Shown here in pieces: positions 19,998 to 23,643 of a DNA stretch of 64,000 bases. Within the stretch, counting starts at the first letter, position 1. Each line of letters begins with the position of its first letter. The notes under the pieces are model-generated. The model was not told the origin of the DNA. It saw only the letters and a list, made by a program, of their open reading frames with translations, and made no database searches. This stretch comes from Bacteroidetes bacterium HGW-Bacteroidetes-4 (GTDB lineage Bacteria > Bacteroidota > Bacteroidia > Bacteroidales > SZUA-534), in NCBI GenBank assembly GCA_002840905.1, contig PHDD01000010.1:1-64000 (forward strand). Reading direction: 5' to 3'. Made by a program: the position numbers and the translations under genes.

Positions 19998-20336
19998 CTA
20001 TTCAAAAAGTGAATTATTACAATAAAATCAGATATTCTGAAAAGTAATATCGAATTTACTTTTTCATGTTAAATGCCTCAAAAAATATTTTGGCTTTAAA
20101 TATAAAAATAGCAAAACACCGGTGCCCAACCCGCGCTCAAACTTCTTGTTCTACACTAAAACTCAAAAAAGACACCAAATAATTGACGTTTTATTTTCTG
20201 ACACCTGTTTACTTCAAAAAACAGCAACCCTTCCCAAACATTTCCTTCATTGGTACAATTATTGTAATGATTTCCAGCCTTTTGTTTCAATTTTTTAATG
20301 AAATTACCGTATAGTATTCATTTAAATTGTTTCGTC

Positions 20337-20816
20337 ATGGAAAATCGAATATCAATTACAATTCCTGATGAAGTGGTTAGCGGTTTTCAAACCAAGATGG
20401 ATGAGGCCATGGCATTAATCCAGCCTTTTCTGGTTACCGTAACCGACGAACAAAAAAAGTCGCTGCTTAAAATTGGAGACAAAACCACTGCATTTGTAAG
20501 CAAGGCTTTAGAGTACATCAAATCGTCCGGTGCCGAATACCTGATGAACTACATCGACCCCGTGGAATTTGAGAAAGACCAGGCCGCAGTATCTCAACTG
20601 CGTGTTATGCGAAACAGAGTGGCTCAGTTAAACCAAAGTCTGGAAGATACCCATGCTTTGGCCGCTAACGATGCTTATGCGCAAGCTTTGGCTTATTATA
20701 ACCTGGTAAAAAGTGCCGAAAAAGCCGGTCAGGCTAAAGCCAAAGCCATTTATGAGGACTTAAGCCAACGGTTTCCGGGGAGGGGAACCAGCCGTATCAC
20801 CGACAAAAATGCCTAA
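20337..20816 (+). CDS. Hypothetical protein, helical
   Basis: I do not recognise a family. From the chosen ATG (MENRISITIPDEVV) it is a soluble, mostly helical protein of about 159 residues. Its N-terminal ITIPDEVVSGFQTKMDEAMA pattern is seen in several short Bacteroidota proteins. The centre has long amphipathic helices (residues about 70-145) rich in Ala, Lys and Gln. An earlier ATG at 20298 would add 13 residues. It is followed by a strong terminator, so it is a single-gene unit. Confidence 0.7.
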   Translation: MENRISITIPDEVVSGFQTKMDEAMALIQPFLVTVTDEQKKSLLKIGDKTTAFVSKALEYIKSSGAEYLMNYIDPVEFEKDQAAVSQLRVMRNRVAQLNQSLEDTHALAANDAYAQALAYYNLVKSAEKAGQAKAKAIYEDLSQRFPGRGTSRITDKNA

Positions 20817-20860: not shown

Positions 20861-20870
20861 GCACTAAAAT

Positions 20871-20937
20871 AACCGGGTAAACAGGGGTTTTAAACGCGGT
20901 AATTTCACCAGGCCTCCTGTTTACCCGGTTTTTTTTC
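20871..20937 (+). terminator. Strong intrinsic terminator
   Basis: A perfect 15-base inverted repeat (AACCGGGTAAACAGG and its complement at 20916-20930) encloses a 30-base loop and runs into a stretch of eight T. It ends transcription of the 20337 gene. Confidence 0.85.
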
Positions 20938-20989: not shown

Positions 20990-21375
20990 GATTAGACGCA
21001 ATTACAGCCCTTTTGGGTCGAAAATCATAGCTTTTAATACTAAAAAGTAAGCTTTTTGTATAAAAATCATAGCTTTTGGTCTAAATTCAGCCCAAAAGGG
21101 GCAAAAAAGAGACCTTTTTGTACAAAAAAGAGACCTAATTGAATGAAAAAGAGGCTAATTTGCTTAAATTCAGACAAAATTAGGCAAAATTCATAGCTTT
21201 TTGTATGAAATTCATACCAAAAGGTACCAAAAAGAGGCAAAATTGCCTAAAATCAGACCAAAAGGTACCTAAATCGTACCTTTTTCTCTAAATTCAGACC
21301 TTTTGGTTTAAAATCAGGCAAAATTGCCTAAATTCAGGGAAATTTGCTTAAAAAAGGCAATTTTTACTTTAAAAT
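20990..21375. repeat. Helically phased A/T-tract array (degenerate ~21-nt tandem units); probable curved DNA
   Basis: About 35 short A- or T-runs (AAAA, TTTTT, AAATT and similar) lie at a mean spacing of about 10.3 bp by hand count from 21012 to 21363. The spacers between them reuse a few words: TCATAG, TTCAG, GAGACC, GAGGC, GGTACC and TTGCCT. Two tracts make a unit of 19-22 bp and about 18 units can be cut out, none identical. Small palindromes such as GGCAAAATTGCC recur. Stops occur in all frames, so it is not coding. Phased A-tracts are the known signature of intrinsic DNA curvature. The array sits between two terminators, with no gene reading into it. Its role is unknown. Confidence 0.8.
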
Positions 21376-21442
21376 AAGCCCAAATCACAGTACTTTTCCC
21401 TAAAAAACCCCCGAGTTAAGAATTAACGTACCGTGCAAAAAC

Positions 21443-21474
21443 AAAAAAAGCTGTTCCGTAGAACAGCCTTTTAT
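21443..21474 (-). terminator. Intrinsic terminator of the peroxiredoxin gene
   Basis: GCTGTTC and GAACAGC form a seven-pair stem with a four-base loop; on the minus strand it is followed by seven T. It lies 19 nt after the peroxiredoxin stop codon. Confidence 0.8.
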
Positions 21475-21492: not shown

Positions 21493-22125
21493 CTAGTTTT
21501 GCGACAGGTAAGCAGCAACCCCTTCCTGGGTGGCGCTCATGGCTTTTTCGCCCTTATGCCAGTCGGCCGGACAAACTTCGCCATTCTCGCGGAAGAACTG
21601 CAAGGCATCTACCATACGAATGGCTTCATCCACGCTGCGACCCAGCGGCATGTTGTTTACCACCTGGTGTTGTACCACACCGTCTTTATCAATTAAAAAC
21701 AGTCCGCGGTAAGCCTGGGGTGTTCCCACAAAGGTAATTTCGCCTTCGTCGGTGTACTCGTAGCTACCGGCCAAAACGCCAAAGTTCTCGGCAATGGTAT
21801 TGGCGGGGTCGGCTACCAGGGGATAGTTTACACCCTGAATGCCACCCTCGTTTTTTGGAGTTTGCAGCCATTTCCAGTGCGAAAATTCCTGATCGGTTGA
21901 GCAGGCTACCACAGCCACATCGCGTTTTTGGAACTCATCCAGTTTTGCCTGAAAAGCAATCAGCTCGGTGGGGCATACAAAGGTGAAGTCGGCCGGGTAA
22001 AAGAAAAAGATAACATCTTTTTTACCCAGGTATTGGTCCAATGAAAAATCACTTACAATGGTTCCGCCATTTATCACGGCAGTGGCATTAAATTTTGGTG
22101 CTTTTTTTCCAACTAAAATCGACAT
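21493..22125 (-). CDS. 2-Cys peroxiredoxin (AhpC/Prx1 type)
   Basis: It reduces hydrogen peroxide and organic peroxides in the cytoplasm. The peroxidatic cysteine is C51 in FTFVCPTELIAF and the resolving cysteine is C185 in NGEVCPADW, the arrangement of typical dimeric 2-Cys enzymes. Length (210 residues) and the tail ending in AAYLSQN fit the family; the GG and YL motifs linked to sensitivity to over-oxidation appear partly present (GGIQGVNYP, AYL). No AhpF or thioredoxin reductase gene is adjacent, so the reductant is not shown here. It is a single-gene unit with its own terminator. Confidence 0.95.
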   Translation of the reverse strand: MSILVGKKAPKFNATAVINGGTIVSDFSLDQYLGKKDVIFFFYPADFTFVCPTELIAFQAKLDEFQKRDVAVVACSTDQEFSHWKWLQTPKNEGGIQGVNYPLVADPANTIAENFGVLAGSYEYTDEGEITFVGTPQAYRGLFLIDKDGVVQHQVVNNMPLGRSVDEAIRMVDALQFFRENGEVCPADWHKGEKAMSATQEGVAAYLSQN

Positions 22126-22878: not shown

Positions 22879-23643
22879 TCACGAATAAATCATCTTTTTG
22901 GTCATCCCCCCGTCGATGGTCAGGTTCTGGCCGGTAATAAAATCGTTTTCCGGATGGCATAAATACAGACAAAGGCGGGCTATATCGGCCGGAGTTCCCA
23001 CACGCCGGCTAAAATGCTGGGCCTTATCTTCGTGGCTTAGCTCTTCGGGCTGGGCCTTATCTTCGTGGCTTAGCTCTTCGGGCTGGCCCGTATGTATCCA
23101 TCCCGGACTAATGCAGTTTACACTGAGGTTTTTATCCTGAAGGCTGGCCGCAAGTGCATGGGTAAGCGAAACCAATCCCCCTTTTGATGCAGCATAGGCT
23201 TCGGAGCCGGGCTCCGACATTAAATAGCGCGTTGAGGCAATATTGATTATCCGCCCGTAGGTTTGGGGTTTGCGCAAGCGGGCAAATTCGCGGCTGCAAA
23301 TAAAAGCCGACCGCAGGTTGGTGTTCAGAATCGTATCCCATTCGGCAACACTCAGCTCCAGCAGGGGTTTAAAAACCGAGATGCCTACATTGTTTATGAG
23401 TATGTCTAAACTTCCGAACTGTTTAGCTATAAATTGAAACAAATTGATAACCTCCGGTTCGCTGCTCATATCGGTTTTTACAAAATGCAGCCCCGCAATT
23501 TCAGCAGCCAGTTGTTTCCCCTTACTGCCGTCGATATCGGCAACTATTATTTGGCAACCGGCAGCACTCATTGCCGTAACAATTCCTAAACCAATGCCAT
23601 GGGCTCCGCCGGTAATTAATACGGTTTTATCTTTTAGTAGCAT
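22879..23643 (-). CDS. SDR-family NAD(P)-dependent oxidoreductase with 11-residue internal duplication
   Basis: A classical short-chain dehydrogenase: cofactor loop TGGAHGIGLG near the N-terminus, DIDGSKG after the second strand (an acidic residue that favours NAD), NNVGIS, the catalytic serine in IINIAS, and YAASKGG with the catalytic tyrosine and lysine, then ISPGWIHTG. Residues 191-212 contain the segment PEELSHEDKAQ twice in a row, encoded by an exact 33-bp direct duplication at 23017-23082. This is the flexible substrate-loop region before HFSRRVGTPADIA, so the enzyme may still fold. Substrate unknown. Confidence 0.92.
   Translation of the reverse strand: MLLKDKTVLITGGAHGIGLGIVTAMSAAGCQIIVADIDGSKGKQLAAEIAGLHFVKTDMSSEPEVINLFQFIAKQFGSLDILINNVGISVFKPLLELSVAEWDTILNTNLRSAFICSREFARLRKPQTYGRIINIASTRYLMSEPGSEAYAASKGGLVSLTHALAASLQDKNLSVNCISPGWIHTGQPEELSHEDKAQPEELSHEDKAQHFSRRVGTPADIARLCLYLCHPENDFITGQNLTIDGGMTKKMIYS
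23017..23082. repeat. Exact 33-bp tandem duplication inside the SDR gene
   Basis: Two identical adjacent copies of 33 bp (23017-23049 and 23050-23082), followed by four more matching bases. The unit is a multiple of three and keeps the frame. Perfect identity means a recent event or an active slippage site. Confidence 0.95.

Follow-up and report, generated by a model that had tools for sequence, protein, structure and literature searches.

A-tracts that recur in phase with the helix bend DNA. In prokaryotes, A/T-tracts at the helix period are found as a general periodicity and in clusters, and are thought to bend the DNA and to aid nucleoid compaction (PMC3940949, PMC4060949); the clusters are weak statistical signals, short, and often near 11 bp. 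BIME-2 are extragenic gyrase-binding repeats, and the arms of the gyrase motif known from E. coli and phage Mu carry a phased 10-bp variation in G/C (PMC6379681). BrickBuilt of Porphyromonas gingivalis is a minisatellite within a MITE and is present in 19 copies; its units measure 23 nt and it has IS5-like terminal inverted repeats (PMC4596501).

The array described here occupies 20990-21400 (unstranded) of the window, i.e. the whole 64,000-nucleotide stretch of DNA that was analysed, and it resembles each of these systems in part. Loosely like BrickBuilt, it belongs to the Bacteroidales, is intergenic, is built from imperfect tandem repeats that each span about two helix turns, occurs in many lengths at several loci of one species and seems to have partly shared ends (PMC4596501); unlike BrickBuilt, whose 23-nt units are much more uniform and whose copies number 19, it has very diverse units of 20-21 nt, four copies and phased tracts. 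Terminal inverted repeats were sought at the array and not found, so it resembles BrickBuilt in build but cannot be filed there. As in prokaryotic A-tract clusters, the spacing of the A/T-tracts equals the helix period (PMC3940949, PMC4060949); unlike those clusters, the element here is a single array of 410 bp in which each tract keeps its place at 10.33 bp, and it is a member of a repeat family. It can be likened to BIME-2 and strong gyrase sites as an extragenic repeat with phased 10-bp variation; BIMEs are built of REP palindromes, whereas the array has no REP-like stem common to all units, and a BIME/REP assignment was rejected. The periodic An/Tn clusters (PATCs) of C. elegans are likewise long, non-coding, helix-phased runs of A- and T-tracts without fixed words, but they are eukaryotic and concern germline expression, and common descent with the array is not expected (PMC7725773).

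Phasing and predicted curvature

A lattice fit places 40 four-base A/T cores in the array, two to a unit, spaced 10.33 bp apart on average (sd 0.57), with single intervals of 9-12 bp, almost always 10 or 11. The first-pass annotation had counted about 35 tracts spaced at about 10.3 bp over some 350 bp, in two-tract units that reuse a small set of words; its count was borne out, with the array running slightly further, to about 21400, and the units are real, at a length of 20-21 bp. The lattice score, which requires just four A/T bases per step, is 159.6 of 160, against 136.5 ± 2.6 (maximum 143.2) in 300 shuffles. A Fourier comparison with shuffled sequence, set beforehand, gave a peak at 10.3 bp with a power of 80, against 7.7 ± 3.1 (maximum 27.6) in 2000 dinucleotide-preserving shuffles. 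When the 64-kb window was scanned by 200 bp, the array reached about 50 and all other places stayed below 22; peroxiredoxin loci from other species, about 0.7 Mb in all, showed no comparable phasing. The helix-phased A/T-tract array is real, and since its A-tracts repeat in phase with the helix it is phased A-tract DNA.

A simple A-tract vector model, in which each A-tract contributes 18 degrees and the helical repeat is 10.3-10.5, puts the predicted curvature of the array at 319-343 degrees per 200 bp and that of a related copy on contig C17 of the same genome at 281-309. The predicted maximum elsewhere in the genome, for which all our genome-wide statements on curvature rest on a 459-kb sample, is 169-185 degrees per 200 bp, about half that of the array; the maximum in the loci of relatives is 172 degrees. 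The Bolshoy dinucleotide wedge model also ranks the array first (417, against 189 elsewhere in the window). The strong curvature proposed in the first-pass annotation is supported as a prediction by both models, by which the DNA would form a nearly closed coil of about one turn per 200 bp and would work like phased-A-tract bent DNA.

One of the two tract slots in each unit is filled interchangeably by TTTT (9), AAAA (3) or A/T-mixed cores (8), and core G/C is zero. Such exchanges leave the A-tract bend unchanged, yet they require several simultaneous transversions. They may be a weak sign of constraint on the tracts, suggestive only, since the fitting procedure favours A/T cores and the units were possibly mixed from the start.

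Four copies, the two long ones differing by whole units

A BLAST comparison of the array with its own genome (4.32 Mb, 42 contigs) found relatives at three further loci, about 60 to 300 bp long, on C17 (78% over 185 bp, E 6e-34), C30 (80%, 76 bp) and C7 (87%, 45 bp). All four loci are intergenic, their units are diverse at 20-21 nt, and the one on C17 is, over about 300 bp, a phased array in its own right. The array had at first been taken for a lone new element; the genome in fact carries four related copies, of which it is one, and other Bacteroidales have arrays that are designed alike but worded differently. A 31-bp match at 2343-2373 falls within a coding frame of 816 aa and was taken as chance. 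Adjoining the C30 copy is a separate low-complexity stretch of TTAGAC, TTAAGAC and GCAAGAC words (L010 3985-4070), and beside the same copy (L010 4232-4474) is an open 81-codon fragment, without a Pfam match, that resembles the terminal piece of a disrupted gene.

The right-hand part of the array (21310..21391, + strand) is common to all four copies by BLAST and alignment, and the stretch at 21249..21347 (+ strand) is shared with the C17 copy free of mismatches except for gains and losses of whole 20-bp units. The full alignment of these two long copies consists of stretches of perfect identity broken by indels of 20, 20 and 124 bp, equal to one, one and six units: each copy lacks one 20-bp unit that the other has, and a 124-bp block (12 turns) of the window array is absent from the C17 copy. 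Whole-unit gain and loss keeps the helix phase without selection, so that the kept period alone is no evidence of selection. The earlier statement that selection keeps the period while the words drift therefore holds as a description, and its inference of selection is weakened by these indels.

Our preferred reading, to which we give a probability of about 0.6, is that the array is a dispersed, degenerate two-turn minisatellite making strongly curved DNA, the curvature being predicted. Two-helix-turn units of 20-21 bp, each with two A/T-tracts, would have been amplified in tandem and copied into four or more intergenic loci of the host genome, and the arrays lengthen and shorten by whole units. 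Growth and shrinkage in such steps leaves all tracts on one helix face and would so bring the DNA close to a closed coil.

A sizeable chance, somewhat short of even, goes to a neutral origin, in which a two-turn unit was duplicated, spread by slippage and was tolerated outside genes and transcripts, with the curvature idle. Phase then comes for free from the whole-unit indels, and the confinement of the sequence family to one species fits as well, but differently worded units all retain their A/T cores, with T4, A4 and A2T2 exchanging in one slot, and neutral decay should have hit the tracts with G/C as often as the spacers, a weak objection given that the fit favours A/T cores.

Arrays with other words, and gene context

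Sequence relatives of the array were absent from 40 closely related genomes, three of them from the same genus, and from 393 genomes of the order, where a single 26-bp match is attributable to chance. The array was also unmatched in plasmids, in phages and, searched by one exact 21-mer, in viral contigs, and an origin from any of these was rejected for want of a match.

The design itself was searched for with a W/S lattice pattern of 11 tracts and at most three mismatches; an earlier 9-tract pattern was too loose and matched mainly ordinary A/T-rich sequence. The 11-tract pattern has no match in 48 Mb of simulated sequence; of the 393 Bacteroidales genomes, 228 have it, usually with one to three matches apiece. 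Real genomes exceed the simulated null, and many of the matches are single and unremarkable; in one high-count genome, G146, the matches listed looked like plain A/T-rich sequence. Those of the stronger loci that were read are genuine degenerate arrays, intergenic, with 10- or 20-21-bp units and entirely different words: CCCACTATATTTGTCCAATTG x14 and CAAATACAGTCGTATTTGTAC x9 in G337, CCATAAAATAAGTTTATGACG x15 in G169, CTTCCCAAAATGCGCAGTTTA x8 in G322, and 10-bp units such as TATTTCAATTG on several contigs of G407, where the arrays are real and some are weakly phased. The search of the genome and its relatives that had been set beforehand yielded three further host copies and, in other Bacteroidales, the same design in other words. 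The best free-fit periods of these look-alikes are 10.0-10.6 bp, at loci preselected for such a period; as the pattern searches select a period of 10.3 bp, they cannot prove a preference for it.

We note some further arrays: (i) A second array in the host genome, unrelated to the window family, lies at L156 (G000:C15) 1531-1706, with ATCAACGGGGATAAATGCCTG-like 21-bp units phased at 10.6 bp. (ii) The G407 arrays of about 10-bp units are dispersed over contigs C84, C147, C383 and C341 (L320-L323), with the words TATTTCAATTG, AAATAAATAG and GTACTTCAATT and with varying strength of phase. (iii) Three neighbouring 21-bp arrays of different words lie at L205 (G169:C91) 1-92, 474-540 and 579-883. Arrays of 21-bp units abound in both G169 and G337, and not all of them are A/T-rich.

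An independent tandem-repeat survey covered about 1.6 Mb of the window's genome and a dozen others. The commonest intergenic unit was 21 bp (13 of the 35 arrays that were 50 bp or longer), a preference that is suggestive only, since 10 of the 13 arrays come from the G169/G337 group, which was chosen for its pattern matches. Several of the surveyed 21-bp arrays, e.g. GCTAGACCTGTTCTGGCTAAA x13 and CCGAGCGGAGTCGACCGGTCG x6.7, have no A/T phasing. Given this and the survey's 21-bp peak, the two-turn unit seems more general than A/T-phasing among Bacteroidales arrays, and the unphased arrays speak for the neutral origin.

On the left of the array, a 172-aa ORF without a Pfam match (20298..20816, + strand) reads toward it and is followed by an inverted repeat (20 nt, T8 tail) that looks like a terminator (20866..20935, + strand). 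On the right, an AhpC/TSA peroxiredoxin gene (21493..22125, - strand) also reads toward the array and ends in an intrinsic terminator, a 12-bp hairpin with a T-tail (21445..21472, - strand); the host is a Salinivirgaceae-like member of the Bacteroidales, and the nearest named relatives of this peroxiredoxin are in the Salinivirgaceae and Marinilabiliales. Each of the six frames of the array contains at least eight stops, with a longest open run of 59 codons, which rules out a coding origin; the units are diverse and there is no fixed repeat, whereas a CRISPR array would have near-identical repeats with unique spacers. The first-pass annotation was right on all three counts, in placing the array between two terminators and in calling it neither coding nor CRISPR. 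Further along the window, a short-chain dehydrogenase gene contains a 33-bp tandem duplication (23016-23093; 2.4 copies, 95%) that repeats the peptide PEELSHEDKAQ.

At each of the four family copies, the closest ORFs of 100 aa or more are convergent, for which p is about 4e-4 given 177 convergent gaps among 1222 in the genome sample. The status of the C30 copy is doubtful because of the adjoining + strand 81-codon fragment, and counting three of four copies as convergent gives p 0.011. Insertions hurt least in convergent gaps, a point in favour of the neutral origin, and arrays of other families are mixed in placement, not mainly between convergent genes. The host genome has seven matches to the HU family (PF00216). 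Positive supercoils gather between convergent genes (PMC8360656), and E. coli gyrase has a preference for DNA in which G/C varies in a phased 10-bp pattern (PMC6379681). The convergent placement may reflect tolerance, or it may reflect a role in handling positive supercoils, as could be hypothesized from the mapping of gyrase and GapR in E. coli (PMC6379681, PMC8360656).

Selection for such a role, with the array as a curved-DNA element that gyrase or HU would use between convergent genes as a wrapping site or a topological buffer, comparably to BIME-2 in E. coli, strikes us as rather unlikely, and on present evidence as less likely than a neutral array. The extreme predicted curvature, the convergent placement of the family copies, the location between two terminators, the likeness to the gyrase motif with its phased arms and the recurrence of the design with other words in other Bacteroidales would all fit it; that similar arrays are not generally convergent, and that the family occupies just four loci, would not.

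Ends of the repeat and possible role

The tail TTTTTACTKTAAAATAMGCCC of the right-hand part (21310..21391) is common to the C17 and C30 copies, and the repeat has its right end there; the tail TTTACTGTAAAATACRCCCTTTGCT is exact in C30, has one mismatch in C17 and is degenerate in the window copy. The left end is only partly alike, in two copies. These shared ends, together with copy-number differences like those of BrickBuilt, are what a non-autonomous mobile element of the MITE/BrickBuilt type, with leader and tail around a minisatellite, might leave, but we think such an element improbable: there are only four copies, neither long copy has terminal inverted repeats of at least 8 bp (a comparison of the ends of the window copy, C10, and of the C17 copy gave no inverted 8-mers), and no target duplication was found for the family, nor an empty site in relatives. 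The peroxiredoxin/PNPOx pair is kept in relatives and the 172-aa gene on the other side of the array is not, so that an empty site could not be shown.

An RNA-level element, i.e. an array of small hairpins, is very improbable, for although the single strand folds better than shuffles (z -3.9 as DNA, -4.0 as RNA) and at every second tract the two flanks show more complementarity than re-paired controls do (38 against 30.1 ± 4.0, p 0.04, a weak effect), folding is inflated by inverted word use within the array (the inverted repeats are units of the same array, 72-87% complementary), both flanking genes terminate before it, and the Rfam models run against the window matched only a tRNA.

Returning to the two-turn minisatellite, the array lies outside both transcripts, between terminators, and is closed in six frames; transcription of it is therefore improbable, and any role it has is likelier to be as DNA than as RNA. 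If it is active at all, its position between convergent genes would suit a DNA element, most likely a site for wrapping or pinning by gyrase or HU where positive supercoils gather.

To our knowledge, the weak A-tract periodicity of bacterial genomes has been debated for decades without a discrete element to test it on. These arrays are compact, of known place and length, and available in related and unrelated wording; their phase can be broken or deleted, which would allow a test of whether the shape of intergenic DNA matters. If slippage alone makes them, the mutational process would favour a two-turn unit length, which is also informative. An element selected for its shape is the more interesting reading. 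In its widest form, which we regard as doubtful, Bacteroidales may repeatedly evolve intergenic arrays of one- or two-turn units with genome-specific words under selection on DNA shape, for wrapping or supercoil buffering, and not on sequence, and the window array would be an extreme case.
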